A DNA stretch of 21,841 nucleotides from a virus, in the IMG/VR virus record IMGVR_UViG_3300045999_005621, positions 1 to 21,841 of that record, one strand, 5' to 3'. Each line of letters starts with the position of its first letter. Position 1 is the stretch's first letter. Under the pieces are notes generated by a model. That model made no database searches and was not told the origin of the DNA. It saw only the letters and a program-made list of their open reading frames with translations. The translations under genes and the position numbers were made by a program. This document shows, in pieces, positions 765 through 21,792 of the stretch.

Positions 765-806
765 ATGACAACAAATTTATATTTCAATCTGAAAACGGGA
801 GATGTT

Positions 807-1250
807 ATGGTTATCTATATTACCACAAATCTTTTGAATGGCAAAAAATATATCGGAATGGATGGGAAAAACAATCCTAAATACTTAGGTTCCGGAACTG
901 CTATAAAAAATGCTATTAAAAAGTATGGAAAAAATAATTTCAAAAAACAAATAATAGAACAATGCTCTTCATTGCAAGAATTGATTATCCGTGAAGAATA
1001 CTGGTTGAACTATTATGACGCTGGAAATAATGACAATTTTTACAATATGCACAATCGTAGTGTTGGTGGACATTACTCATCTAATGTCATTAAAGAGAAA
1101 ACCTCAAAGAAAAAAGAGAAATTTTGGAGCATTCAAATTCGTACCGATGTTAAAAAAGAATTGAATGACTATTGTAGAAATAACGGATATACTGTAATTG
1201 ATTTTGTAGAAAATATAGTTAGAAATCATTTATCAAAAACTAATTCTTAA
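807..1250 (+). CDS. GIY-YIG endonuclease with C-terminal ribbon-helix-helix domain
   Basis: The start at 807 is preferred: CGGGAG lies five bases before it and the protein then opens directly with the GIY-YIG domain. The upstream in-frame ATG at 765 sits immediately behind the ATATTTATAG motif. The 147-residue product has IYI at 3-5 and YIG at 15-17 (the variant GIY...YIG pair), a helix with KKYGKNNF at 38-45, IREEYW at 61-66 with the likely metal-binding Glu, and an Asn-containing FYNMHN segment at 78-83. Residues 107-142 look like a ribbon-helix-helix DNA-binding unit: a short strand SIQIR, a helix DVKKELNDYCRNNG and a second helix FVENIVRNHL. The gene does not visibly interrupt another gene, so it looks like a free-standing homing-type endonuclease. 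The nuclease family is clear; the RHH call is by pattern. Confidence 0.8.
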   Translation: MVIYITTNLLNGKKYIGMDGKNNPKYLGSGTAIKNAIKKYGKNNFKKQIIEQCSSLQELIIREEYWLNYYDAGNNDNFYNMHNRSVGGHYSSNVIKEKTSKKKEKFWSIQIRTDVKKELNDYCRNNGYTVIDFVENIVRNHLSKTNS

Positions 1251-2672: not shown

Positions 2673-4109
2673 ATGGCAAAGAAAAAGATATTATTATTAT
2701 CGGATGATATGAGACTAACATCTGGTATAGCAACTGTATCGAGAGATATGGTTATTGGAACGGTAAAAGATTTTGATTGGGTTCAGTTGGGAGCTGCTAT
2801 AAATCATCCAGATAATGGAAAGGTATTAGACTTATCAGAAGATGCAAAGAAAATGACAGGAGATGAAACTGCAAACGTTAAGATATATTGCTATAATAGT
2901 TATGGCGATTCAATGATGCTTCGTAGAATCATAGAACAGGAAAATCCAGATGCTATTTTACATTTTACTGATCCAAGATTTTGGGGTTGGTTGTATAACA
3001 TGGAACACGAGATTAGAACAAAAATTCCTTTATTGTATCTAAACATATGGGATGGTGCAGGTTTAGTCGGTGATACACCAACTGATCCAATGTGGAACAA
3101 AGAGGCGTATTCAAGTTGTGATTTGTTGATGGCAATATCAAAACAAACTTATGGCATAAATCATAGAATATTAAAAAGATTCGGTGAAGATATTCCACCT
3201 CACAGAATAACTTACGTTCCACATGGAATAGACACTGATATGTTTTTTCCAATAGAACCGGTAAAGTCTGAAAGAGAAATTGATTGGAATGAATTGCAAG
3301 AAGAAAGTAAAAAAATACGTGGTAACAATAAAAATAAATTTGTTGTGATGTGGAACAATAGAAATATTCATCGTAAACATCCAGGTGATGTAATTCTTGC
3401 ATACAAACATATGTGTCAGCTTATTGATAAAAATGGAGGAAATGCATCTGAAGATTGTATTTTACTTATGCACACACAACCAATTGATCACAACGGAACT
3501 GATTTAGTTGCACTTGTTGGTGAGTTATGCAATGAATATAATGTTTTATTTGATGATAAAATAGTTCCATCTAATAAATTAAATGTTCTGTATAATTGTG
3601 CAGATGTTGTTGTTAATATGGCGTCTAATGAGGGATTTGGATTGGGAACCGCTGAGGCAATTGCAGCTGGAACTCCAATAGTTGTTAATGTAACAGGTGG
3701 TTTGCAGGATCAATGTGGGTTCATAAATCCAGAAACAAACAAATATTTTACTGCAGATGATTACATAAATATTCACACACTACATAGAAAAGATGTTTGG
3801 GGTGACATACATCATGGTGAATGGGTAAAACCTGTTTGGCCATCTAATATATCGGTTCAAGGTTCTGTTCCAACACCATATATTTTTGATGACCGTGCAG
3901 ACTTTAGAGACATTGGAAATGCTTTATATGAGTGGTACATTGTACCAAAAGAAGAAAGAAAATCTTGTGGATTAAAAGGTAGACAATTTATATCAAATCC
4001 AGAAGTTGGTATGTCCAGAAAAGTTATGGGCGAAAGGGTATCTAAAAGTATAAAAGATACATTAGATAATTTCAAACCAAGAAAAAAATTTAGTTTACAT
4101 TTAGCATAA
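2673..4109 (+). CDS. GT4-family glycosyltransferase
   Basis: This 478-residue protein is a GT-B retaining glycosyltransferase of the GT4 (group 1) family. It opens with a Rossmann strand (KKKILLLSDD, residues 3-12) followed by TSGIATVSRD, the nucleotide-sugar/acceptor loop. YVPHGIDTDMF at 181-191 is the typical interdomain linker, FVVMWNNRNIHRKHP at 223-237 starts the C-terminal domain, and NEGFGLGTAEAIAAGTPIV (319-337) is the E-x7-E donor-binding motif with Glu320 and Glu328. Full-length for the family. ATG at 2673 follows AAAGG closely, nine bases after the previous stop, so it is probably co-transcribed with its neighbours. The transferred sugar cannot be told from sequence. Confidence 0.88.
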   Translation: MAKKKILLLSDDMRLTSGIATVSRDMVIGTVKDFDWVQLGAAINHPDNGKVLDLSEDAKKMTGDETANVKIYCYNSYGDSMMLRRIIEQENPDAILHFTDPRFWGWLYNMEHEIRTKIPLLYLNIWDGAGLVGDTPTDPMWNKEAYSSCDLLMAISKQTYGINHRILKRFGEDIPPHRITYVPHGIDTDMFFPIEPVKSEREIDWNELQEESKKIRGNNKNKFVVMWNNRNIHRKHPGDVILAYKHMCQLIDKNGGNASEDCILLMHTQPIDHNGTDLVALVGELCNEYNVLFDDKIVPSNKLNVLYNCADVVVNMASNEGFGLGTAEAIAAGTPIVVNVTGGLQDQCGFINPETNKYFTADDYINIHTLHRKDVWGDIHHGEWVKPVWPSNISVQGSVPTPYIFDDRADFRDIGNALYEWYIVPKEERKSCGLKGRQFISNPEVGMSRKVMGERVSKSIKDTLDNFKPRKKFSLHLA

Positions 4110-4118
4110 GGATTTTAT

Positions 4119-5432
4119 ATGAGTTATAGACCAAAATTAGTTTTTTGTGGACCGGTTGCAACTATGAGTGGATATGGATCACATGCAAGAGATTTAGTTC
4201 ATTCATTGATAGATATGGATATGTTTGATATTAAAATCATGTCAATAAATTGGGGTGAAACACCAATGAATGCATTGAATCCAAATAATCATCTTGATAA
4301 AAAAATATTAGATAGAATTTTACCAGGACAACTGACAGAACAACCAGATATATGGATGCAGTGTACAATCCCAAATGAGTTTCAAAAAGTTGGTAAATAC
4401 AATGTTGGCATAACTGCAGGAATTGAAACAGATATATGTGATGCGAGTTGGATAGAGGGATGTAATCGAATGGATTTGGTTATAGTTCCATCTAAACATT
4501 CTAAAAAAGTTTTTGAAGATAGTAAATTTGAAAAGAGAGATAAAAATACACATCAAGTTATCGGTGCTGTGGAGTTACAAGTTCCTGTTGAAATTCTACA
4601 CGAGGGGTTCAGAGAAGAAATATACAACAAGGATGCAGAGTTAGATTCTGATGTTGTTGGTTTATTGGATGAAATTAAAAATGATTTTGCATTTTTATTT
4701 GTAGGTCATTGGATGAAAGGGGATTTTGGTCAAGATAGAAAAGATGTTTCTGGATTGATATACACTTTTTTTGAAACATTTGGAGATACACAAAACCAAC
4801 CCGCATTGATATTAAAAACTTCTGCAGGAACTTTTTCTGTATCAGACAGATCTAGAATTATTGAAAAAATAAATTTGATAAAGAGTATGTCCAAGAAAAA
4901 AGTTCTGCCACCTGTTTATTTGTTACACGGTGATTTAACAGACGAACAGATGAATACATTGTACAATCACCCAAAGGTTAAGGCATTTGTTTCTTTTACA
5001 AAAGGTGAGGGTTATGGAAGACCTATTGCTGAATTTGTTACAACAGGAAAACCAGTCTTAGTTTCTGGTTGGAGTGGTCAAACTGACTTTGTTGATGAAA
5101 AGTTTCATACTCTTTTGAAAGGAGAGGTAAAGGAAGTTCATTCTAGTGCGATTTGGGAAGGAATAATAAATGCCGGAACTAATTGGTTCACAGTAGATTA
5201 TCAATCAGCCGCTAAAAAGTTACAATCTATGAAACAAAACTATAATCAACATTTAACAAGTTCAAAACTATCATTGAAATATTTTCATAAAAAATGGTCA
5301 TATTCTGCAATGGTTGATAATTTTAAGAAAATGTTAGAAGAAAGATTGCCAAAATTTTCCGAAAAGGTTGCATTAAACTTACCAAAGTTAAATGCATTAC
5401 CAAAATTGACTACTCTAAAAAAAGAGGATTAA
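4119..5432 (+). CDS. GT4-like glycosyltransferase
   Basis: This is a 437-residue GT-B enzyme. MSGYGSHARDLV at 16-27 is the N-terminal glycine loop, VIVPSKHSKKVFE at 121-133 is the usual surface-helix segment, LHEGF at 160-164 is the linker, FLFVGHW at 192-198 begins the C-terminal Rossmann domain, and GEGYGRPIAEFVTTGKPVL (296-314) is the E-x7-E motif with Glu297 and Glu305. AAGGA precedes the ATG at good spacing and the stop of the previous gene is nine bases upstream. It is only distantly similar to the preceding GT4 gene, so the pair is unlikely to be a recent duplication. Donor and acceptor are unknown. Confidence 0.85.
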   Translation: MSYRPKLVFCGPVATMSGYGSHARDLVHSLIDMDMFDIKIMSINWGETPMNALNPNNHLDKKILDRILPGQLTEQPDIWMQCTIPNEFQKVGKYNVGITAGIETDICDASWIEGCNRMDLVIVPSKHSKKVFEDSKFEKRDKNTHQVIGAVELQVPVEILHEGFREEIYNKDAELDSDVVGLLDEIKNDFAFLFVGHWMKGDFGQDRKDVSGLIYTFFETFGDTQNQPALILKTSAGTFSVSDRSRIIEKINLIKSMSKKKVLPPVYLLHGDLTDEQMNTLYNHPKVKAFVSFTKGEGYGRPIAEFVTTGKPVLVSGWSGQTDFVDEKFHTLLKGEVKEVHSSAIWEGIINAGTNWFTVDYQSAAKKLQSMKQNYNQHLTSSKLSLKYFHKKWSYSAMVDNFKKMLEERLPKFSEKVALNLPKLNALPKLTTLKKED

Positions 5433-6068: not shown

Positions 6069-7652
6069 ATGAAAGATTTAATAGTAACAACTATAAGTGA
6101 AAATTATGTTTGGACTGATATTAACAATTGGATTAGCTCATTAAAAAATACAACATATTCTGGTGATATTCTTGTTATAGCATATAACTTTGAAGATAAT
6201 CATTCTCATTTAGAAAAATTGAGAGATATGGGTGTAACTATATTGGCACCAAATAATACATTTCGTGGTGAGATAGAAAATAAATTTGTTTGGCACTCTG
6301 GAGAAGTGAACCCTTCAAATGCAAACAAACTTATACATAATGTTAGATTGTTCCATCTTTGGCAATACTTTAATGAAACAAATTTAGATAAAGGTTACGA
6401 TCGAGTTATATTTACAGATGGTAGGGATGTATATTTTCAAACAAATCCATCAGACTGGCTGGATTCTAATATGAAATCGGATGTAATAGTTCCATCCGAG
6501 GCGGTTACATATGAAAATGAACCTTGGAATAGAAATAATCTTTTGAGTAATTATGGTCCATATTTGTATGAATATCTTCTAAAAGAAAAGTCTGCGTGTA
6601 ATGTTGGAACATTTGCTTGTAAAGCCGATATTGTTAGAGATTTATGCTTAATACTATATTTGATGTCAAACAATACTGGTCATGCCGACCAACCTTCATT
6701 TAATATAATCACAAACACTTTATTGAAAGATAAGTCACAATGGGTAGACTACAACGATTCTTGGGCACTGCAGATAGGAACAATAGTAAATGAATTGGAT
6801 AAATATGTTGATACAAAAGACGGATTACTATATCCAAAAAATTCATCAACACCGTATTCATTAGTTCATCAGTATGATAGGATTCCTCATTTGAAAAGTT
6901 TTGTGGATAAAAAATTCAATCAGATAGATGATAGGATGTTATCATTCATCATTCCATACCGGAATAGAGAAAATCATCTTTCAAAATTACTACCAAGATT
7001 AAAACAAGTTCTTGCTGGTAAGAACTATGAAATAATAATTGCAGAGCAAAATGATAATGAAAAGTTTCTGTTGAGTTCATTGTATAACATTGCATACAAA
7101 TATACAAGTGGAGATACAATTGTGTTTCACGATGTAGACTATTATCCGTCTGATAATGTTGTTTATGACACCGATAATGATAAACCATTTTATCCTGTTG
7201 GTAAGTTAGTATTCTTGGATGAAAACGATAAACAGAGATCAATTGATGATATACCAGATGGATATAGAAATTTTCACAATACAGTTGGTGATCATGCCGG
7301 TGGAGTTTTTGTATTACCGAAAAATGTTTTTGAGAAGATAGGGGGGTTCAATCCATATTATCGAGGTTGGGGTAAAGATGATGATGATACGAAAACTAGA
7401 GTTAGAATAAATGGATATGAATGGAACAGAAACAATCAAGGACTGTTTTATGCATTATACCATGAAGATAGTAAACCAGAAGATAATGATAATGATTTTA
7501 TCCGTAACCATGAAATACTCTATAAATTTAAAGAGTATTTGAAATATGGGTATAAAGATGTATCGGCAGATGTTGAAGTATTTCAAGTTGATGATAAAAC
7601 AAAATGGTTGAAAATAAACAATTTTAAATACACAGAAACGGGATTAAATTGA
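6069..7652 (+). CDS. Two-domain glycosyltransferase; C-terminal half galactosyltransferase-7-like
   Basis: This 527-residue protein is apparently a fusion of two GT-A domains. Residues 1-280 have FTDGRDVYFQTNP at 115-127, a donor/metal site placed after a long strand, and NVGTFACKADIV at 178-189, as in GT8/DUF616-like enzymes. Residues 290-500 open with LSFIIPYRNRENHL (291-304), have FHDVDYYP at 353-360 (DVD as the DXD motif) and carry HAGGVFVLPKNVFEKIGGFN at 409-428 followed by GWGKDDDD at 433-440. That run matches the C-terminal domain of the beta-1,4-galactosyltransferase (GT7) family, where the GWG-x-[ED]-D segment binds acceptor and metal. The two active sites may add two sugars in sequence. 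The family call for the second half is strong, that for the first half moderate. Confidence 0.8.
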   Translation: MKDLIVTTISENYVWTDINNWISSLKNTTYSGDILVIAYNFEDNHSHLEKLRDMGVTILAPNNTFRGEIENKFVWHSGEVNPSNANKLIHNVRLFHLWQYFNETNLDKGYDRVIFTDGRDVYFQTNPSDWLDSNMKSDVIVPSEAVTYENEPWNRNNLLSNYGPYLYEYLLKEKSACNVGTFACKADIVRDLCLILYLMSNNTGHADQPSFNIITNTLLKDKSQWVDYNDSWALQIGTIVNELDKYVDTKDGLLYPKNSSTPYSLVHQYDRIPHLKSFVDKKFNQIDDRMLSFIIPYRNRENHLSKLLPRLKQVLAGKNYEIIIAEQNDNEKFLLSSLYNIAYKYTSGDTIVFHDVDYYPSDNVVYDTDNDKPFYPVGKLVFLDENDKQRSIDDIPDGYRNFHNTVGDHAGGVFVLPKNVFEKIGGFNPYYRGWGKDDDDTKTRVRINGYEWNRNNQGLFYALYHEDSKPEDNDNDFIRNHEILYKFKEYLKYGYKDVSADVEVFQVDDKTKWLKINNFKYTETGLN

Positions 7653-7653
7653 A

Positions 7654-8298
7654 ATGAAATCATACCAAGATATTGTTGGATTTTTTAATTATGAAAAAAT
7701 ATACTATGATAATGTTATGAGCGCATATGATGGTGATGTATTTGTTGAAGTTGGAAGTCTTTGGGGACGCAGTGTAATTTACATGGGACAGGCGTGTAAA
7801 CAGTTCAATAAGAATATAAAAATTTATGCAGTTGATTATTGGGATTACAGAGGAGTTCCAGAGTTAATGACTCCTGGTTTGGATCCATCTGGATTGGATT
7901 ATGAAAAAGATGGTCCAGATTGTTTATATGATTCATATTTAAAAAACTTAAAGGATTGTGGTGTAGATGATATTGTTACATCTTTAAGGTTATCATCAGA
8001 AGATGCTAGCAAAACGTTTGATGACGATTCCGTAGATTTTATTTTCATAGACGCTAATCATACATATGAAAGTGTAATGAATGATTTAAAGTGCTGGCAT
8101 AAAAAAATAAAACCAGGAAAAATAATATCTGGACACGATTACGATTGGGATGGTGTTAGAACTGCTGTTAATGATTTTTTTGGAGAAGGTAATATATCAA
8201 CCTACAACACATCGTGGATATATCAAAAACCAGTTTTTGATATTGATTCCGAATCTATTAAAAAATACAATCAATATAATTTATACACAAACATATGA
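7654..8298 (+). CDS. Class I SAM-dependent methyltransferase (Methyltransf_24 type)
   Basis: This 214-residue Rossmann methyltransferase has VFVEVGSLWGRSVIYMG at 29-45 as SAM-binding motif I, IYAVDYWD at 57-64 as motif II with its acidic residue, and VDFIFIDANHTYESVMNDL at 127-145. That last run, the IDxxHxYE signature of the Methyltransf_24 / macrocin-O-methyltransferase-like group, is followed by PGKIISGHDYDWDGV (154-168). These enzymes often methylate sugar hydroxyls in surface polysaccharide or antibiotic loci, which fits the location. The start lies one base after the previous stop. The substrate is not known. Confidence 0.82.
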   Translation: MKSYQDIVGFFNYEKIYYDNVMSAYDGDVFVEVGSLWGRSVIYMGQACKQFNKNIKIYAVDYWDYRGVPELMTPGLDPSGLDYEKDGPDCLYDSYLKNLKDCGVDDIVTSLRLSSEDASKTFDDDSVDFIFIDANHTYESVMNDLKCWHKKIKPGKIISGHDYDWDGVRTAVNDFFGEGNISTYNTSWIYQKPVFDIDSESIKKYNQYNLYTNI

Positions 8299-8305
8299 TA
8301 AAAAA

Positions 8306-8917
8306 ATGAATTTGAATTTAATATCAAAATATTTTATACCACATCGAGTTTTAGATATTGGTGCAAATATAGGAGAGTTTCATAAAGAATTTAAAACTAT
8401 TTATCCAAATAGCTATGTATTCAGTATAGAGGCATCTAGAGAATGTGAATCCGAATTGAAAAAAATAACAAACGATTATTTGATAGCACTTCTTGCAAAA
8501 GATACCTCTATTTATCAATTTTATAGTAGAAAAGGAAACCCAACATGCACAGGTAATTCTATTTATAGAGAACTAACTCATTTCTATTCGGATGATCAAA
8601 TAGATATTCTTGAAATTGAAAGTATGACCTTGGATGATATATTCACCGAAGATTCAGAGTTTGATGTCATTAAAATAGATACACAAGGATCTGAATTGGA
8701 TATTATTTCTGGTGGAAATAAATTGTGTAGTAAGGCAAATGGTATGATATTGGAAGTATCTTTGACTCCATATAATCAGGATGCACCTTTATATGATGAG
8801 GTTTTATCGTTTATGGATAATTTTGGATTCATAGCCAAAGAAATACTAGATGAATCTTTTAATAACGGTTCACATCAACTTGATATTTTATTTATTAAGA
8901 AAGAGATTAAAAAATGA
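8306..8917 (+). CDS. FkbM-family methyltransferase
   Basis: The ATG at 8306 is chosen because it lies seven bases after the previous stop and the protein then starts just before its first domain motif; the frame is open further upstream within the preceding gene but shows no domain there. The 203-residue product has VLDIGANIGEFHKEF at 15-29 (SAM motif I), VFSIEASRECESELKK at 38-53 (motif II with Glu) and FDVIKIDTQGSELDIISGG at 119-137, the hallmark IKxDxQGxE signature of FkbM (Methyltransf_21) proteins. FkbM enzymes commonly O-methylate sugars. It overlaps the next gene by four bases (ATGA), indicating translational coupling. Confidence 0.85.
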   Translation: MNLNLISKYFIPHRVLDIGANIGEFHKEFKTIYPNSYVFSIEASRECESELKKITNDYLIALLAKDTSIYQFYSRKGNPTCTGNSIYRELTHFYSDDQIDILEIESMTLDDIFTEDSEFDVIKIDTQGSELDIISGGNKLCSKANGMILEVSLTPYNQDAPLYDEVLSFMDNFGFIAKEILDESFNNGSHQLDILFIKKEIKK

Positions 8918-9777
8918 AAATACTAGTAAAGACAATGGGATTTATCGGTGACAATATATTTGCTACACCGATTGCAAAAAAATTAAAAGAGAAACACGGA
9001 AATGATTGTGTAGTTGATTTTCATATATCAATACTTGCACCGTTTGAATTGATACATAATAGTCCATATATTGATAATGTTTATACAAGTGCACCGGATG
9101 AAGATGGATATGATATTGTTCATAGACTGAACCCAATACATAGAAAAGAAACGCCAATTATTCAATTGCAAAAACAATGTGGTATAGAAAACCCAACAAC
9201 TGATTATGAAGTTTATACAAATTCTGCAATAGATTCATTGGTTAGTGCGGCATTTATTGAACACAGAAAAAACAATAAACTACTTTTGGCTTTTCAATTG
9301 AATTGGGAAGAAAAAACTTTTATATTCACAGAAGAAGAATATAAAAAAGGTATTGATGTTCCAGGAAAAGGATATGGCGGTAAACATAGAAATATTGATT
9401 TCATTTTGAATGAACTAAATAAAAATCCAAACTTTATATTGATTCCTGTTGGTAAACCAAATGGCTATGATCAAAGAGTTACCGATGTGACGTGTGTTAG
9501 TGAATTAACATTAACAGCATCAGTAATAAAAGAATGTGATTGTTTTATAGGAACGGAAGGTGGTCTATCTAATATAGCAGCAGGAGTTGGAACCAAAACA
9601 ATACTCACTGGAGATTTTGTTCACCAGTTGTATGGGTGGAACGGTGTTATTGAAAAAAATGAAGATCCAAAATTAGGACCAATATTTTATTTTCCAGAAT
9701 TTGGCCATGTCACACTAAATCCGTATATTACAGACCGAGAAGTTGTTGATAGTATAAACAAACACTTAATTCCTTGA
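8914..9777 (+). CDS. GT9-like (heptosyltransferase-fold) glycosyltransferase
   Basis: This 287-residue GT-B protein is of the GT9/heptosyltransferase type. It opens with MKILVKTMGFIGDNIFATPI (1-20), the GxxGDxxxxTP-like loop of the family. It has the PYIDNVYTS step at 51-59, a strand NFILIPVGKP at 173-182 beginning the second domain, and CDCFIGTEGGLSNIAAGVGT at 208-227, the typical D-x(n)-G-x-x-G-G-x-x-H/N-x-A nucleotide-sugar site. It is shorter than LPS heptosyltransferases (about 320-350 residues), as phage and capsule-locus versions often are. The start overlaps the previous stop (ATGA). Confidence 0.78.
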   Translation: MKILVKTMGFIGDNIFATPIAKKLKEKHGNDCVVDFHISILAPFELIHNSPYIDNVYTSAPDEDGYDIVHRLNPIHRKETPIIQLQKQCGIENPTTDYEVYTNSAIDSLVSAAFIEHRKNNKLLLAFQLNWEEKTFIFTEEEYKKGIDVPGKGYGGKHRNIDFILNELNKNPNFILIPVGKPNGYDQRVTDVTCVSELTLTASVIKECDCFIGTEGGLSNIAAGVGTKTILTGDFVHQLYGWNGVIEKNEDPKLGPIFYFPEFGHVTLNPYITDREVVDSINKHLIP

Positions 9778-9797: not shown

Positions 9798-10538
9798 ATG
9801 ATAAAAGAAATAGAAAATTGGTTAATTGAATACATTACAACAAATAAAATGGATTGTTTTGTTGTTGGTATAAGTGGTGGAATTGATTCCGCATTGGTTT
9901 CCACTCTTTGTGCACAAACTGGAATAAAAACATATGTTATTAGTATGCCAATACATCAGAAATCATATCAACTCCAAAGGGCAAGAAATCATGCAAAATG
10001 GTTAGTGGATAGATATTCAAATGTAAAATTTTTAGAATTTGATTTGACAGATGTTTTTGATTTATTTTCTTCTTTGTTTACAGATAAAAAAGAATTATCA
10101 CTTGCAAACTCTAGGTCTAGATTAAGAATGGTAACTCTCTATCAAATAGCAGGTGACAATCACGGATTGGTAGTTGGAACCGGAAACAAAGTTGAAGATT
10201 TTGGAATAGGATTTTTTACCAAATATGGCGATGGTGGTGTTGATATTTCTCCAATTGCTGATTTAACAAAAACGGAAGTTAGAATAACTGCAAAAGAGTT
10301 GGGTATAATAGATGAAATACTTAAAGCAAAGCCAACAGATGGTTTATGGGAAGATGATAGAAGTGATGAAGATCAAATCGGAACATCCTATGAATATTTA
10401 GAGTGGGCTATGGAATTTGATGGTAATTTAAATGAATGTTCCGATGAACAAAAGAGAGCGTTTGAAATTTTTAATAAATTGAACAATTTGAATAAACATA
10501 AAATGGTTTCGATACCAATTTGGAAAAAAAATAAATAA
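9798..10538 (+). CDS. nadE: Ammonia-dependent NAD+ synthetase-like amidating enzyme
   Basis: This 246-residue adenine nucleotide alpha hydrolase-fold protein has the full NadE pattern: P-loop GISGGIDSALV at 24-34, NSRSRLRM at 104-111, GTGNKVEDFGIGFFTKYG at 127-144 then DGGVDISP (145-152), DLTKTEVR at 155-162, KPTDGLW at 178-184, DEDQIG at 190-195 and a C-terminal NKHK (232-235). NadE activates nicotinic acid adenine dinucleotide with ATP and amidates it with ammonia to give NAD+. There is no glutaminase domain. The ATG at 9798 is preferred over an in-frame TTG at 9774 inside the previous stop; neither has a clear ribosome binding site. It sits between a GT9-like gene and a sugar dehydrogenase gene, which raises the alternative that it amidates a uronic acid. 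The family is certain, the substrate is not. Confidence 0.85.
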   Translation: MIKEIENWLIEYITTNKMDCFVVGISGGIDSALVSTLCAQTGIKTYVISMPIHQKSYQLQRARNHAKWLVDRYSNVKFLEFDLTDVFDLFSSLFTDKKELSLANSRSRLRMVTLYQIAGDNHGLVVGTGNKVEDFGIGFFTKYGDGGVDISPIADLTKTEVRITAKELGIIDEILKAKPTDGLWEDDRSDEDQIGTSYEYLEWAMEFDGNLNECSDEQKRAFEIFNKLNNLNKHKMVSIPIWKKNK

Positions 10539-10548
10539 GGAGTTTTAT

Positions 10549-11790
10549 ATGAATGTAGGTTTTATTGGTTTAGGAAAACTTGGTCTTCCATGTGCACTTG
10601 CTGCTGAAAATCACGGTCACACAATATATGGATATGATATTGATGATAATGTTAAAAATATTTTAGATACAAAAAAATTACCTTACAGAGAAGAAGGTGC
10701 TCATGAATTATTACAAAATCACAATATAAATTGGTGTAGTATTTCGGATGTAGTTTCAAATTCAGATATTATTTTTGTCCCAATTCAAACCCCACATGAT
10801 CCGAGATATGAGGGAACAACTAGATTACCGGAAGAAAGAATTGATTTCGATTATAGTTGGTTGAAATCCGGAATGAAATCACTTGCCAAAGAAATTGAAT
10901 CACAAGGTAAAGATAAAATTGTTGTCATAATATCTACCGTTTTACCTGGAACAGTTCGTAGAGAAATAAAACCTTTATTGAATAGTCATGTAAAACTTTG
11001 TTACAATCCTTTCTTCATTGCAATGGGAACAACTATAAAGGATTTCTTATATCCAGAATTTGTTTTGTTTGGGGTTGATGATGAAGGTGCTTATGAAAAG
11101 GCAAAAGAATTTTATTCAACGTTACATAACAAACCAATTTACAAATGTACTATTGAAGAAGCCGAAATGATTAAGGTTACTTACAATACATACATAACAA
11201 TGAAGATATGTTTAGCAAATGTTGTAATGGAGGCATCACATAAATTGAATAATATAAATTGTGATAATGTTATGAATGGTTTATTTATGGCAACCGAAAG
11301 ATTGATTAGTCCAAAATATCTTTTAGGTGGAATGGGTGATGGCGGTGGTTGTCATCCTCGTGATAACATTGCATTATCATGGCTAGCGAAAGAGTTGAAC
11401 ATGAGTTATGATTGGTATGAGAATCTAATGATATGCCGTGAAAATCAAACAGAATGGTTGGGTGATTTGTTTATAGATGAAATGAATAAAAACAGTTTAC
11501 CTGGAGTTATTTTAGGAAAGTGTTTTAAAAAGGAAACTAACTTGACGGTTGGAAGTCCGTCTATATTATTAAAAAATTTGTTAGATGAAAGGGGTGTAAA
11601 TGTTGATATGTTTGATCCTTGGATAGATGATGGGGTTGCTCCATTAGATGAACCAAAAGTCTATTTCATCGGCACAAATCACGATATTTTTATTAACTAC
11701 AATTTTCCGAAAGGTTCTGTTGTAATAGATCCATGGCGTTTTATCAAACACAAAGATGGAATAAATGTAATTCATGTTGGGATTAGTTAA
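10549..11790 (+). CDS. UDP-glucose/GDP-mannose dehydrogenase family protein
   Basis: This 413-residue protein is close to full length for UDP-sugar 6-dehydrogenases, which oxidise a nucleotide sugar twice to a uronic acid. GFIGLGKLGLPCALAAENHG at 4-23 is the N-terminal NAD-binding loop, FVPIQTPHDP at 76-85 corresponds to the conserved VxTP segment, ISTVLPGTVR at 128-137 to STVPxGT, CYNPFF at 151-156 to the NPEF segment, and GGMGDGGGCHPRDN at 260-273 holds the catalytic Cys268 in a GGGCHPRD setting in place of GGSCFPKD. A C-terminal nucleotide-sugar binding domain follows. AAGGAG seven bases before the ATG is among the strongest ribosome binding sites in the window. The substrate sugar is unknown. 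Confidence 0.85.
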   Translation: MNVGFIGLGKLGLPCALAAENHGHTIYGYDIDDNVKNILDTKKLPYREEGAHELLQNHNINWCSISDVVSNSDIIFVPIQTPHDPRYEGTTRLPEERIDFDYSWLKSGMKSLAKEIESQGKDKIVVIISTVLPGTVRREIKPLLNSHVKLCYNPFFIAMGTTIKDFLYPEFVLFGVDDEGAYEKAKEFYSTLHNKPIYKCTIEEAEMIKVTYNTYITMKICLANVVMEASHKLNNINCDNVMNGLFMATERLISPKYLLGGMGDGGGCHPRDNIALSWLAKELNMSYDWYENLMICRENQTEWLGDLFIDEMNKNSLPGVILGKCFKKETNLTVGSPSILLKNLLDERGVNVDMFDPWIDDGVAPLDEPKVYFIGTNHDIFINYNFPKGSVVIDPWRFIKHKDGINVIHVGIS

Positions 11791-12546: not shown

Positions 12547-13170
12547 ATGGCTAATAAAATACATCCACTTGCATTTGTAGATTATTCAACTGTAAAACTT
12601 GGTAATAGTAATATCATAGGTCCTTATTGCTACATAACAGGTGATACCGAAATAGGTGATAATAACATATTTCAATCGCATTGTGTTATTGGAACACAGG
12701 CGGAACATCGTGATTACATGAGAGATAATCCAGGAAAAACATATATTGGTAATAACAATATATTCAGAGAGTTTACAACTGTTCATGCAGGTAGTTCGGA
12801 TGAAACGGTTTTATCAGATTATATTGTTATGTTAAGAGGAAGTCATGTCGGACATGACAGTTATATTGGAAAAAAAGTAAATTTATCTTGTAATGTTTTA
12901 ATAGGTGGACACTCTCATATAATGGATGGTGTAAACTTTGGGTTGGGTAGTATGTGTCATCAGTTTAGTGTTATTGGTGCATATTCTATGATAGGAATGG
13001 GATCTGTTATTACAAAAACGAACAAAATAGAACCTGGAAAAATATATGTTGGATCACCCGCAAGATTTCTCAAAGAGAATAAAATCGGTTTAGAAAGAAA
13101 TAATATACAAGAATCTGATTTACTCGATTTGAATTTTGCTTTTAATGCTTTACATAAAAATAGGAATTGA
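12547..13170 (+). CDS. LpxA-like hexapeptide-repeat acyltransferase
   Basis: This 207-residue left-handed beta-helix protein aligns by eye with UDP-N-acetylglucosamine O-acyltransferase (LpxA). N-terminal hexapeptide coils occupy 1-50. NNIFREFTTVHAGS at 70-83 corresponds to the LpxA RESVTIHRGT segment. SHVGHDSYIG at 99-108 holds His100 and His103, His103 matching the catalytic His of LpxA, and further conserved His residues occur at 122 (GGHSH) and 138 (CHQF). The C-terminal helical domain is cut to about 35 residues, so the protein is some 55 residues shorter than E. coli LpxA. It could transfer an acyl or acetyl group to a UDP-amino sugar. The ATG has GAGGT at good spacing. Confidence 0.82.
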   Translation: MANKIHPLAFVDYSTVKLGNSNIIGPYCYITGDTEIGDNNIFQSHCVIGTQAEHRDYMRDNPGKTYIGNNNIFREFTTVHAGSSDETVLSDYIVMLRGSHVGHDSYIGKKVNLSCNVLIGGHSHIMDGVNFGLGSMCHQFSVIGAYSMIGMGSVITKTNKIEPGKIYVGSPARFLKENKIGLERNNIQESDLLDLNFAFNALHKNRN

Positions 13171-15200: not shown

Positions 15201-15989
15201 ATGATTTCAGTAATAATCCCATCGTATAGAAATCCAAAGTGTTTAGACATTTGTTTGAAGTCTGCATTAGAAAATCAAACTTATGAGAACGAAATAATAG
15301 TTGTCATAGATGGATTTGTTGAAGAATCACAACACATCATTGATGAATATAGTAATAGAGTTTCATTTATACCATTAGACCAAAACTCTGGTATGCAGTA
15401 TGCACTAAATGTTGGAACATACAATGCAAACAATGAGTGGATTTTGATTGTTAATGATGATAATGTTTTTCCGAAAGATTGGGACACTATTCTTGAAAAA
15501 GACTTTGAGGATAAGTTAGTCATAACTCCAAATCAAATAGAGAGAACACCGAGTATATTTAATTTTGTTACACTTGACTTTGGTGATGTGAATAACTTTG
15601 ATTTTAAAAAATATACCGAAGAAGAACAAAAATATCGTCAAGATTTATCAACTACTGATGGGGAGATATTTCCTTTCATAATGCAAAAGAAATATTATAT
15701 GGCCGTTGGTGGATTTGATACAATATATGATTCACCCTTTATATGTGATTGGGATTTCTTTCTAAAATTAGAATTGATTGATTTGAAGTTTACCAGAAGT
15801 AGAAAATTAAACTTCTATCACTTTGGAAGTATGGCTACAAAAAATGGTTCTGAATCTGACAGGTTTAAGAAAAGTGAAATTGATGCAGTGAATACTTTTA
15901 CATATAAATGGGGATTTAAACCTTTTAGAACAAAAGAAAATTCACATTCACCAAAAGGAAATACTATTAAAGGAATAATATATGAATGA
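15201..15989 (+). CDS. GT2-family glycosyltransferase
   Basis: This is a classical GT2 enzyme of 262 residues. ISVIIPSYRNPKCLDICLKS (2-21) is the opening strand and loop, EIIVVIDGF at 31-39 gives the first Asp, and EWILIVNDDNVFPKDW at 79-94 contains the NDD donor/metal motif. VGGFDTIY at 169-176 and CDWDFFLKL at 182-190 form the acceptor-side GGFD and catalytic-base region (D-W-D in place of the usual ED). The C-terminus ends in a short basic tail. It overlaps the start of the epimerase gene by eight bases. Confidence 0.88.
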   Translation: MISVIIPSYRNPKCLDICLKSALENQTYENEIIVVIDGFVEESQHIIDEYSNRVSFIPLDQNSGMQYALNVGTYNANNEWILIVNDDNVFPKDWDTILEKDFEDKLVITPNQIERTPSIFNFVTLDFGDVNNFDFKKYTEEEQKYRQDLSTTDGEIFPFIMQKKYYMAVGGFDTIYDSPFICDWDFFLKLELIDLKFTRSRKLNFYHFGSMATKNGSESDRFKKSEIDAVNTFTYKWGFKPFRTKENSHSPKGNTIKGIIYE

Positions 15990-16986
15990 TAAAACTATAT
16001 TGATTACCGGAGGTGCCGGTCTATTGGGTGCTAGACTTTGTGATTGGATAGTGAAATATCATCCAGAATATACGGTTGTTTCTGTTGATAATTTATCCGG
16101 TGGTTATATTGATAATGTTAATAGTGATGTTATTTTTTACCAATCAGATTGTGTTGATAGAAAACAGATAGATGATATATTCAATAGACACAAACCAACG
16201 TATGTTTATCATTTGGCTGCGTATGCAGCAGAAGGATTATCACCGTTCATACGATGTTTTAATTATGAGAACAATCTTCTTGCTACTGCTAATATAGTCA
16301 ATAACTGTATCAAACATGATGTGAAAAGATTGGTATTCACATCAACTATGGCAGTCTATGGACACGGTAATCCACCATTCGATGAATCACATCAACCTGC
16401 ACCGATTGATCCATATGGTGTTGCTAAGTTTGGTTGTGAACAAGACATTCAAATTGCCGGTGAACAACATGGTTTGGATTGGTGTATAATCAGACCACAC
16501 AATGTTTATGGTATTAAACAGAACATTTGGGACAAATATAGAAATGTTCTTGGGATTTGGATGTATCAAGTTCTCAATCATAAACCAATGACCATTTATG
16601 GTGACGGTAATCAAGTTCGTTCATTCAGTTATATCGATGATTGTCTTGAACCACTTTGGAAGGCAGCAGTGGATTCTCTTGCTTCAAAACAGATAATAAA
16701 TTTAGGTGGAACAAAAGATTACAGTATAAACGAAGCTAATGATATTCTAAAATCAGTTATTGGTTATGGTGAAACGATATATCTTGAACCAAGACATGAA
16801 GTAAAGTATGCACATCCAACTTGGAAAAAGTCTGTTGATTTGCTTGATTATTCGGATAACACTTCGCTTGAAGATGGATTGAAACAGATGTGGGATTGGG
16901 CAAAAGAACAACCTATGCGTGAACAATTCATTTGGAGTGAATATGAATTGGAAAAGGGTATTTATTCATTTTGGAAAAATAAGTGA
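15982..16986 (+). CDS. NAD-dependent sugar epimerase/dehydratase, GalE-like extended SDR
   Basis: This 334-residue extended short-chain dehydrogenase acts on nucleotide sugars. It has ILITGGAGLLGARL (6-19) as NAD-binding GxxGxxG motif, VYHLAAYAA at 75-83, the catalytic triad segment FTSTMAVYG at 119-127, and YGVAK at 145-149 with Tyr145 and Lys149. HNVYG and VRSFSYIDDC, in the C-terminal half, are typical substrate-domain motifs of GalE/UDP-GlcNAc epimerase relatives. Length is normal. It may interconvert a UDP-hexose for use by the transferases nearby or by the dehydrogenase gene that follows after six bases. AAGGA in the previous gene serves as ribosome binding site. Confidence 0.9.
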   Translation: MNDKTILITGGAGLLGARLCDWIVKYHPEYTVVSVDNLSGGYIDNVNSDVIFYQSDCVDRKQIDDIFNRHKPTYVYHLAAYAAEGLSPFIRCFNYENNLLATANIVNNCIKHDVKRLVFTSTMAVYGHGNPPFDESHQPAPIDPYGVAKFGCEQDIQIAGEQHGLDWCIIRPHNVYGIKQNIWDKYRNVLGIWMYQVLNHKPMTIYGDGNQVRSFSYIDDCLEPLWKAAVDSLASKQIINLGGTKDYSINEANDILKSVIGYGETIYLEPRHEVKYAHPTWKKSVDLLDYSDNTSLEDGLKQMWDWAKEQPMREQFIWSEYELEKGIYSFWKNK

Positions 16987-16992
16987 GGTGAT

Positions 16993-17829
16993 ATGAAAAC
17001 GATAGGAATAATCGGTCAAGGTTTTGTTGGTAACTCTGTAAATCAAGGGTTAAAAAATTATTTTAATATAGAAACATATGATACCATTCAAGAAAAAAGT
17101 ACGGTAAACAATATAGATGAATTGTTCTATAAGTCAGAGGTCATCTTTGTGTGTTTACCAACACCAATGAAATCCTCCGGTGAGTGTGACATTAGTATAA
17201 TCGAATCTGTATTCAACGAATTAAATTCTATTGGGAATAAAATTGTTATACTGAAATCAACTGTTCCTCCGGGAACTTGTGATGAACTCGCTAAAAAATA
17301 TGAAAATTTAGATGTTGTATTTAATCCAGAGTTCCTAACAGAGGCAAATGCAGTTCAAGATTTCATAAACCAAGATAGGATTGTTTTAGGTGGAAGTAGT
17401 GATGAAACTTTATCTTACGTTGAATCTTTATTCAAAATTGCATTTGAAATCGTTCCAATAATAAAAACAAATAGAAAAACTGCTGAAATGGTTAAGTATG
17501 TTACAAATTGTTTTTTGGCAACGAAAGTATCTTTTGCTAATAACATCTATGACATTTGTGATAAGTCTGATATAAACTATGATGAAATGATAAATATTGT
17601 TAAATTGGATAAAAGAGTTGGGGATAGTCATTGGAAAGTACCCGGACCAGATGGAGATAGAGGATATGGTGGTCATTGTTTTCCAAAAGATATGGGTGCT
17701 TTGGTTTACTATTCATCAAATATTGGTGCATACCCAACATTGATACACACTGCAATTCAGGTAAATGACTGTGTTCGTAAAAATAGAGATTGGGAAAATA
17801 TGAAAGGAAGGGCAGTTTCAGATCAATAA
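16993..17829 (+). CDS. UDP-glucose/GDP-mannose dehydrogenase family, short form
   Basis: This 278-residue dehydrogenase has IGIIGQGFVGNSV (3-15), VCLPTPM at 53-59, STVPPGT at 89-95, FNPEFLTEANA at 110-120, and NCFLATKVSFANNIYD at 172-187 with the conserved Lys178. GYGGHCFPKDMG (224-235) holds the catalytic Cys229. It keeps the NAD-binding and central domains but lacks most of the C-terminal nucleotide-sugar domain (family usually 400-450 residues), ending soon after the catalytic loop. The C-terminus (RDWENMKGRAVSDQ) reads as a natural end. GAGGTGAT before the ATG is a strong ribosome binding site. It is the last gene of the cassette and differs clearly from the dehydrogenase at 10549. Confidence 0.85.
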   Translation: MKTIGIIGQGFVGNSVNQGLKNYFNIETYDTIQEKSTVNNIDELFYKSEVIFVCLPTPMKSSGECDISIIESVFNELNSIGNKIVILKSTVPPGTCDELAKKYENLDVVFNPEFLTEANAVQDFINQDRIVLGGSSDETLSYVESLFKIAFEIVPIIKTNRKTAEMVKYVTNCFLATKVSFANNIYDICDKSDINYDEMINIVKLDKRVGDSHWKVPGPDGDRGYGGHCFPKDMGALVYYSSNIGAYPTLIHTAIQVNDCVRKNRDWENMKGRAVSDQ

Positions 17830-17889: not shown

Positions 17890-18246
17890 ATGCATGAAAT
17901 AGCAAGCACACTAGTTGCGATTCAGACACAATTACGATTCTTTCATTGGCAAACTAAATCATATGCCCGTCATCAGGCATATGGTGGAACATACGGTGCA
18001 ATGGATGGATTGATTGACAATTTCGTTGAAGTTCTAATGGGTAAGTATGGTAGAGTCCCAGCACTTCCATTTAAACTTTACAACAGAAATGAGAAAGATA
18101 TTATGGCATTTATAGATGAAACTGTTTCTTACTTATTGAATTTGGACAATGTTCTGAACACACAAACTGATACAGACTTACTCAATATTCGTGATGAAAT
18201 GGTTGCAGAATTTAATAAACTTCGTTATTTAATTACATTAAAGTAA
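17890..18246 (+). CDS. DUF5856-type ferritin-like phage protein
   Basis: This is a 118-residue all-helical protein. The first 60 residues, including the helix ending LRFFHWQTKSYARHQAYGG (about 16-34) and then AMDGLIDNFVEVLMGKYGR, match the pattern of DUF5856 proteins of T4-like and other large phages. The HWQTxxxxxH spacing and the D-x2-D/E acidic helix resemble Dps/ferritin-like proteins, where His and acidic residues bind metal. Iron binding or DNA protection is possible but unproven for the family. GGAG lies seven bases before the ATG. Confidence 0.72.
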   Translation: MHEIASTLVAIQTQLRFFHWQTKSYARHQAYGGTYGAMDGLIDNFVEVLMGKYGRVPALPFKLYNRNEKDIMAFIDETVSYLLNLDNVLNTQTDTDLLNIRDEMVAEFNKLRYLITLK

Positions 18247-18448: not shown

Positions 18449-18639
18449 CACCCAAAAATATACATAAAATTGCAGATAAGTTAGGTATATCTTGGGATGG
18501 TGATAAAACATTTATGGCATGGTGTCATTCAGTTGTTGGAAAAGAACATTTAGATGATATGAATGAAGTTGAACTGATTATGATATACAATAGATTGAAG
18601 AATGGGAAATACCCCATGGAGTTTATATCAAATGGCTAA
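18445..18639 (+). CDS. Small hypothetical protein
   Basis: This 64-residue protein starts in the stop of the gene before it (ATGA), which supports translation by coupling. It has KNIHKIADKLGISWDGDKTF (4-23) and then WCHSVVGKEHLDDMNEVELIMIYNRL, which reads as two or three short helices. The second part faintly resembles the C-terminal stretch of Mu Gp16/GemA-like proteins (GKxHLDxM-x-ELxxVYxxL), too weak for a name. Function unknown. Confidence 0.55.
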   Translation: MTPKNIHKIADKLGISWDGDKTFMAWCHSVVGKEHLDDMNEVELIMIYNRLKNGKYPMEFISNG

Positions 18640-19063
18640 TATAAATCATATATCACCCGAGGAACTCTCTAAAATAATGAAGCCAGGTGCAGCAGGTATT
18701 TTAACCATGACTGAATCTGGAGAATTTCTTTTAACCAAGAGAACATCTAAGGCACACTATTTGGGTGGTCACTGGTCAGTTCCTTCTGGTGAAGCTGATG
18801 TTAATAACTTCGAGTCAATGGAGCAATGTGCCCGTAGAGAATTTTTTGAAGAAACCACTCATCAAATACATCCCAATGAAAAACTCATTTGTATAGATAG
18901 ATACTTTACAGATAATAGAATGTATTTTCTTTTTATCTATAAAGTGAAAAAAAGATTTTTTGTTAAAATAGATTGGGAACATGATGATGTAAATTGGTTT
19001 ACAAAAGACAATCTACCACATCCAATATCTTCACAAATTTACGATGCAATACAAAGAATCTGA
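18632..19063 (+). CDS. Nudix hydrolase
   Basis: The ATG at 18632 is chosen because GGAG (18618-18621) precedes it and the Nudix fold begins soon after; an in-frame upstream ATG at 18602 lies within the previous gene. The 143-residue product has AAGILTMTESGEFLLTKRT (20-38), then HWSVPSGEAD, then a Nudix box ending ARREFFEETT (67-76), in which the R-E-x2-E-E core is intact. The box has two extra residues between its Gly and first Glu (G-x7-E instead of G-x5-E). Nudix enzymes hydrolyse nucleoside diphosphates linked to another group, so substrates could be NDP-sugars, NAD derivatives, oxidised dNTPs or RNA caps. It overlaps the preceding gene by eight bases. Confidence 0.85.
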   Translation: MANINHISPEELSKIMKPGAAGILTMTESGEFLLTKRTSKAHYLGGHWSVPSGEADVNNFESMEQCARREFFEETTHQIHPNEKLICIDRYFTDNRMYFLFIYKVKKRFFVKIDWEHDDVNWFTKDNLPHPISSQIYDAIQRI

Positions 19064-21375: not shown

Positions 21376-21792
21376 ATGAGATATATCATTGCCTTATTCC
21401 TCGCAGTTGGCGTATTAACTGCGAGTGATACCAAACCACACTTACTTAAATCAATAGTTAGTGGTGGTAATGGTAATGCAACAATTGGACAAGTTGTTGC
21501 TGGTTTCAAGAATAGGTTTCATATTGGTATTCGTGTTCCAAATAGAGTAGCACTTTCCGTAGAAGAAACTAGAAATGTTGATGGTTTGGTTTATCCGAAC
21601 CCGTGTTATGGCGTTGCAACTGTTGGTATGGACGATGTTAAATCAATTCAAGTATCTGACCTGTATGGTAAGTTTCTAACAGAGGGGATTGATGTTTTTA
21701 CCAGAACTATCACATTCACAAATCGTGGTGTGTATATTGTTAGAGTTACAACAAACTCTAATGTTACTTATTCAACAACTATCATTTACTAA
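21376..21792 (+). CDS. Secreted protein with T9SS-type C-terminal sorting domain
   Basis: This 138-residue protein starts with a Sec signal peptide (MRYIIALFLAVGVLTAS, cleavage likely near residue 16). A linker follows, with GNATIGQVVAGF at 33-44, reminiscent of the TIGQ-containing segment seen in many Bacteroidota/Ignavibacteria secreted proteins. The C-terminal part begins VYPNP (72-76), continues with IQVSDLYGK (91-99) and ends GVYIVRVTT (118-126) plus a last strand STTIIY. This is the YPNP...DLxGK...GxYxxRV layout of the type A T9SS sorting domain, which directs cargo across the outer membrane. There is almost no separate passenger domain. AGGAG lies eight bases before the ATG. The sorting-domain call is by pattern and fairly sure; the function is unknown. 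Confidence 0.72.
   Translation: MRYIIALFLAVGVLTASDTKPHLLKSIVSGGNGNATIGQVVAGFKNRFHIGIRVPNRVALSVEETRNVDGLVYPNPCYGVATVGMDDVKSIQVSDLYGKFLTEGIDVFTRTITFTNRGVYIVRVTTNSNVTYSTTIIY

Follow-up and report, generated by a model that had tools for sequence, protein, structure and literature searches.

Viruses recurrently encode a protein of the NAD synthetase family (NadE) beside a UGDH-like nucleotide-sugar 6-dehydrogenase (UGDH). We lean toward the view that UGDH-paired viral NadEs use the NadE fold to amidate a nucleotide-linked uronic acid, the product being destined for a phage glycan. We hold as evenly balanced the wider claim that UGDH-paired phage NadEs act as nucleotide-sugar uronamide synthetases, an activity new to the NAD synthetase family. 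They would then form an ammonia-using route independent of AsnB in cyanophages, pelagiphages and Bacteroidota-type phages, hidden under the name 'nadE auxiliary metabolic gene'.

Genomic context strongly favors uronate amidation: the pair is seen from both sides, it involves three UGDH types, it is accompanied by NadE fusions, and true NAD contexts are separate. Evidence against it is that the pocket is unchanged, that linked NadEs are not one clade, and that NadE and UGDH each also occur without the other. We give context more weight than residues because three UGDH types in both gene orders are hard to explain by NAD supply, and because NadE residues change little even across a known substrate switch. 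The initial annotation had set NAD+ replenishment against amidation of a uronic acid made by the neighboring dehydrogenase, and this was the right pair to weigh. That interpretation is partly supported: the recurrent pairing favors amidation, the residues resemble those of a normal NadE, and neither reading is refuted on the grounds then proposed (clustering, pocket residues and gene context).

The window gene and its glycan island

The window, meaning the whole stretch of DNA analyzed, is an IMG/VR virus record of 21,841 bases; gene searches covered its open reading frames (Table 1). Its NadE matches PF02540 NAD_synthase (1.5e-48, 165.5 bits, cut-off 21) and PHROG_11189 'NAD synthetase' (2.8e-78), and passes the curated threshold of TIGR00552 nadE (171.2 bits, cut-off 63.65). 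The P-loop SGGIDS, GT..E..F.TKYGDGG.D, K158, PTDGL and H234-K235 are all kept. An in-frame TTG at 9774 is a possible alternative start. The protein has a single domain and lacks AsnB-type glutaminase and synthetase domains (17.9 bits with the AsnB model TIGR01536, cut-off 267). The initial annotation had described intact NadE motifs, glycan-gene neighbors and no other visible NAD-synthesis gene. The first two descriptions are borne out, and no other NAD gene was recognized among the window open reading frames searched.

Table 1. Predicted genes of the glycan island in the window
Feature	Coordinates	Strand	Evidence
Glycosyltransferase	2673..4109	+	PHROG_2170 1.5e-15
Glycosyltransferase	4119..5432	+	PHROG_2170 2.6e-19
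Glycosyltransferase, C-terminal half galactosyltransferase-like	6069..7652	+	PF13733 1.8e-12, PF02709 2.3e-11
Methyltransferase	7654..8298	+	PF13578 2.3e-20
Gene immediately 5' of nadE, weakly heptosyltransferase-like	8914..9777	+	TIGR02201 5.9e-4, far below cut-off
nadE, predicted NadE-family ammonia-dependent amide synthetase	9798..10538	+	246 aa, intact ORF from ATG 9798
UGDH-like nucleotide-sugar 6-dehydrogenase, 'type 1'	10549..11790	+	PF03721 6.5e-23, PF00984 3.8e-16
LpxA-like hexapeptide acyltransferase	12547..13170	+	PF00132 4.4e-17; NF003657 138.9 bits, below cut-off 226
SDR nucleotide-sugar epimerase/dehydratase	15982..16986	+	PF01370 3.6e-44
Second UGDH-like dehydrogenase, 'type 3'	16993..17829	+	PF00984 3.8e-26, PF03721 2.8e-25

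The first UGDH-like gene follows the nadE stop codon after a gap of 10 bp. An AAGGAG upstream of its ATG shares bases with the nadE stop codon, as read by eye, and the two genes may therefore be translated as a pair. Its product carries the active-site motif GGGCHPRD and matches PHROG_9148 (1.4e-80), and scores slightly below the cut-off of TIGR03026 (182.9 bits against 189.8). The second UGDH-like protein exceeds that cut-off (207.8 bits) and lacks the C-terminal UDP-binding domain. For the gene immediately 5' of nadE, Pfam gives a chance-level match alone (0.043).

Three further genes lie 3' in the window. A DUF5856/starvation-regulator-like gene (17890-18246; PF19174 1.7e-17, PHROG_858 5e-17) and a NUDIX hydrolase gene (18602-19063; PF00293 1.7e-14) follow the glycan island. 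The third (21376-21792) encodes a small protein whose N-terminus looks like a signal sequence and whose C-terminus matches the type IX secretion sorting domain PF18962 (6.5e-6, 26.8 bits, slightly below the cut-off of 27), which points to a Bacteroidota host.

Recurrence of the NadE-UGDH pair

We compared 97 distinct viral NadEs, with identical proteins removed: the window protein, 9 from phage records and 87 from IMG/VR (overlapping sets of 31 loci and the best 80 of 563). A UGDH lies within 5 kb of NadE in 70 of the 97 loci, window included. The two genes are immediate neighbors in 48 of these 70. Random placement of UGDH among the genes of each locus would give 8.9, and none of 200,000 simulations reached 48. 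When the set was reduced to 16 representatives (60% identity), 12 pairs were still adjacent against 2.3 expected; 7 representatives at 55% gave 5 against 0.75, and 2 at 50%, a number too small for a judgment, gave 1 against 0.18. UGDH follows NadE in 33 adjacent pairs and precedes it in 15. The partners fall into three UGDH types (51, 14 and 5 members) with mutual identity below 40%; a fourth UGDH cluster consists of the second window UGDH and a single relative.

The pair is also found when the search starts from UGDH. The large type has 431 relatives in IMG/VR, of which the best 80 were kept, 72 of them distinct. NadE is present in 56 of these 72 loci, within 120 bp in 43, and absent from 16, proportions biased upward by the NadE-linked query. 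The scan seeded with the window UGDH found NadE in 7 of 14 loci, with the same upward bias. At the 16 loci without NadE, glycosyltransferases and methyltransferases flank UGDH, and inspection by eye revealed no obvious AsnB-like or other amidotransferase beside it. All six annotated isolates (the cyanophages and pelagiphages Bellamy, S-SSM7, P-TIM68, HTVC008M, Sf-FS3 and S-SCSM2R) carry the pair in a glycan cluster. The genes are directly adjacent in five; in Bellamy a methyltransferase lies between them.

Phage glycan islands shuffle, and linked NadEs partly share ancestry (a clade of 23 cyanophage members), as would be seen if nadE and UGDH were a cassette hitch-hiking through such islands without functional coupling. 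We consider this hardly credible, given three UGDH types, two gene orders and many NadE lineages.

The phage UGDHs have unusual sequences. They, including the first window UGDH and those of loci L159 and L009, have a C-x-PRD motif where the canonical one is CFPKD, and their sugar substrate may be other than UDP-glucose. The large type is short C-terminally whether paired with NadE or not. At L235 (6001-8529) and L236, UGDH is interrupted by an apparent split intein, as judged by eye. The N-terminal part ends in GGMGDGGG, followed by an intein-like Cys; next comes an open reading frame that looks like an endonuclease gene (7147-7947); and behind VHN the C-terminal part continues with the catalytic Cys (CHPRDN). 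We take this layout to resemble the 'fractured gene' arrangement.

NadE fusion proteins

Four different single-frame NadE fusions were found, and UGDH is adjacent in all four. In L138, NadE carries an N-terminal GT2 glycosyltransferase domain (PF00535 1.2e-5, above cut-off). The L020 and L156 fusions have an N-terminal domain that, by eye, looks like the product of a stand-alone gene located 5' of NadE in L007 and matches no Pfam family above cut-off; three contigs carry the L156 fusion in identical form. In L141, NadE has a C-terminal extension with no family assigned.

The carboxylate that is amidated could instead be another one of the glycan pathway (lactyl, carboxyethyl or aldonic), or amidation could follow transfer to a lipid or protein acceptor. 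The glycan context and the glycosyltransferase fusion agree with this version too, and the C-x-PRD motifs and truncated or divergent UGDH C-terminal domains make the partner's product uncertain. The tight link to UGDH points at the UGDH product itself, however, and we judge another carboxylate improbable.

Fold and active site

The AlphaFold2 model of the window NadE (pLDDT 91.8) was searched against the PDB. The top 38 entries are all NAD or NMN synthetases (Z 29.8-19.5), followed by a GMP synthetase (Z 16.7). The best match is the Francisella NMN synthetase 3fiu (Z 29.8, rmsd 1.8, 224 aligned residues), with a small lead over the Helicobacter pylori NAD synthetase 1xng (Z 28.4, rmsd 2.1, 231 aligned). 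In sequence, too, 3fiu is the solved structure closest to the window protein (1.6e-51; the next scores 4e-40). An NMN synthetase like Francisella NadE*, converting NaMN to NMN and rescuing NAD+ from NAD-depleting defences, would fit this double match. We nevertheless rate it very unlikely: 3fiu is barely ahead in fold, neither a NaMN supply nor NadM is seen nearby, and the UGDH link would be unexplained.

From UniProt/HAMAP and Bacillus subtilis structures, we take Y33, R140, Y147, T160, E165, K173, D180, K189, T211, H260 and K261 of E. coli NadE to contact NaAD or ATP. In our alignment, which also sets the numbering, these positions are 93-100% conserved alike in 80 bacterial and archaeal, 70 UGDH-linked and 27 unlinked viral NadEs. 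P-loop, Mg/ATP and deamido-NAD contact residues are present in the window protein and invariant in a 26-row alignment that includes E. coli NadE. Among the alignment columns, no residue marking a pocket change toward a sugar uronate cleanly separates linked from housekeeping or NAD-context NadEs, and a search for a C-terminal tail signature of linked NadEs gave nothing diagnostic. The best near-site shift is at window L231 (Q, K or R in linked NadEs; A, I or V in NAD contexts), which we rejected as a specificity mark, as E. coli NadE has K there.

The initial annotation had regarded altered pocket residues together with consistent glycan contexts as evidence against NAD+ replenishment; the contexts were found and the alterations were not. 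Judged from its residues, the pocket neither argues for a new substrate nor excludes one, because a UDP-uronate shares pyrophosphate and carboxylate with NaAD and because Francisella NadE* switched substrate within the family.

Cellular relatives and phylogeny

Searching bacterial and archaeal contigs with a profile of ten phage NadEs gave 591 relatives. We kept the 80 best, most of them from Flavobacteriia or other Bacteroidota and some from archaea of the Poseidoniales type. Viral NadEs are 52-60% identical to the Flavobacteriia-type proteins. They share with them the fold, the catalytic and NaAD/ATP positions, and a one-residue insertion relative to E. coli (KVED-G-GF), which we therefore rejected as a mark of a glycan clade; the viral C-terminal tail is shorter than in most Flavobacteriia proteins. 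Of 30 genomes searched among the 80, all but one, a Myxococcota MAG, lack a second NAD synthase match exceeding 45 bits (29 of 30), so this subfamily is the housekeeping NadE type of Flavobacteriia.

Genomic neighborhoods differ. Bacterial copies have neighbors that include gldB and gldC, recognized by eye; the viral copies have UGDH and glycan genes beside them (70/97), not gldB/gldC-like or NAD-pathway genes. No UGDH was found near NadE in the best 80 of the 591 bacterial and archaeal loci, using an HMM built from phage UGDHs and run without a bacterial positive control. Seven bacterial loci inspected by eye, including the Myxococcota genome with other NadEs, had no sugar genes beside NadE.

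We built a quick maximum-likelihood tree of 178 rows, in which E. coli is a long outgroup, the root is unsure and many forks are open. Linked, unlinked and bacterial rows interleave within the one subfamily. The UGDH-linked NadEs do not form a single clade, since at least five changes are needed to fit the branches with good support. All 23 members of the cyanophage clade are linked. Grouping with metabolic NadE, together with an unaltered NaAD pocket, had been named in advance as evidence against amidation, and both are largely what we find.

NAD-pathway contexts

These results bear on a rival explanation, that the viral protein is an ordinary NAD synthetase from Flavobacteriia-like hosts. 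It would convert NaAD to NAD+ for the two dehydrogenases and the epimerase, or for phage replication. The unchanged NaAD/ATP positions fit this explanation, as do the 52-60% identity to the cellular relatives and their role as the only strong NAD synthase in 29 of the 30 genomes searched. In addition, members of the same subfamily adjoin NAD-pathway genes in viruses. Among the 27 of 97 viral NadEs unlinked to UGDH, as judged on the flanking DNA available, PncB or NadD lies beside NadE in four (L029, L032, L035 and L036), against none of the 70 linked loci; the PncB/NadD families were confirmed above cut-off for L029, L032 and L036.

We still consider an ordinary NAD synthetase unlikely for the UGDH-paired proteins. 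It leaves the fusions and the adjacency to UGDH, with three types in both orders, unexplained, and UGDH reduces NAD+ rather than consuming it. Upstream NAD genes are absent from most linked phages: nicotinate phosphoribosyltransferase is missing in six of seven complete phage genomes carrying the pair, and none of the seven has NadD above cut-off (three have weak matches). For this reason replenishment of NAD+ against host defences is a weaker form of the NAD reading.

The seventh genome, that of the 642-kb phage LR756502, illustrates the separation. Its NadE, 62% identical to the window protein, adjoins UGDH. About 320 kb away (LR756502.1 133119-135581; L237 2620-5082, minus strand) lie a phosphoribosyltransferase gene (NF006629, 583 bits), of what we take to be a NadV-type family, and a NadM-Nudix-like gene (33.6 bits, far below its cut-off). 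These two are likely a NAD+ salvage pair. That NMN-type route would be independent of NadE, so nadE would not be needed to complete it.

Separately, in nine of the 27 unlinked loci (L013, L014, L015, L016, L018, L039, L148, L151 and L168), HSP20-, GroES- and GroEL-like genes directly precede nadE, as recognized by eye.

Proposed reaction

We infer the substrate, the uronamide product and its use in a glycan from the gene contexts above. UGDH would act on a nucleotide-linked sugar, probably a UDP-hexose, and oxidize its C6 to a carboxylate. The NadE-fold protein would use ATP to convert this carboxylate to an acyl-adenylate, and ammonia would displace AMP, giving a nucleotide-linked uronamide. 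Glycosyltransferases of the island would then transfer the uronamide sugar to a phage-specified glycan. Like NaAD, a UDP-uronate is a pyrophosphate-linked nucleotide that ends in a carboxylate, so one set of phosphate and ATP contacts could suit either.

If correct, this reaction gives a further substrate to an enzyme that ranks among the most conserved in NAD metabolism and explains the role of a recurrent 'NAD synthetase' of marine phages. Phages would build amidated sugars, perhaps to mask charges on the surface of the virion or the host. A further consequence would be caution in assigning phage nadE to NAD metabolism or anti-defence when context is not considered.

Relation to known systems

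A change of substrate within the NadE family has a precedent in the NMN synthetase NadE* of Francisella tularensis, according to the accessible part of PMC3376133. The window protein has 30% identity to NadE* over the structural alignment, and its genomic context differs.

The known uronamide enzymes in the available text of PMC7468200 are AsnB-like (WbpS, WbqG, PGN_1234), and in their glycan pathways the proposed reaction is the same, the conversion of a sugar uronic acid into a uronamide. Those are glutamine-dependent and belong to another family, and we claim no homology, whereas a NadE-type enzyme would use free ammonia. The N-acetyl sugar amidotransferases WbpG/NASAT, likewise PP-loop ATP-pyrophosphatases acting in glycan modification, form an acetamidino group on an N-acetyl sugar and have a tetracysteine zinc site (PMC10607449, accessible part); the best families of the window protein are NadE. 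Phage NAD+ salvage by NadV-NadM, as in KVP40 (cited in the available part of PMC11097641), bypasses NadE, and the LR756502 salvage genes probably represent such a pair.

Parts of the pattern appear in earlier work, as far as the accessible portions of these papers go. LPS clusters were noted in S-SSM7 (PMC3037559), cyanophage 'NAD synthetase' was listed with photosynthesis genes (PMC10452541, PMC7238727), and nadE and UGDH of snow viruses were listed as separate AMGs (PMC11097641). The literature we covered, to which most subscription papers do not belong, yielded no link between phage NadE and UGDH or uronamides.

The label 'NAD synthetase' of PHROG_447 looks mistaken. P-TIM68 gp170 (L003:3614-4048) matches it at 5.5e-66, also matches homing endonuclease families, and is not among the PF02540 matches of the P-TIM68 genome. 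A homing endonuclease gene in the window (765-1250; PHROG_314 3e-24) matches PHROG_447 as well (3.9e-9). Published counts of cyanophage 'NAD synthetase' may thus mix PHROG_447 with true NadE.
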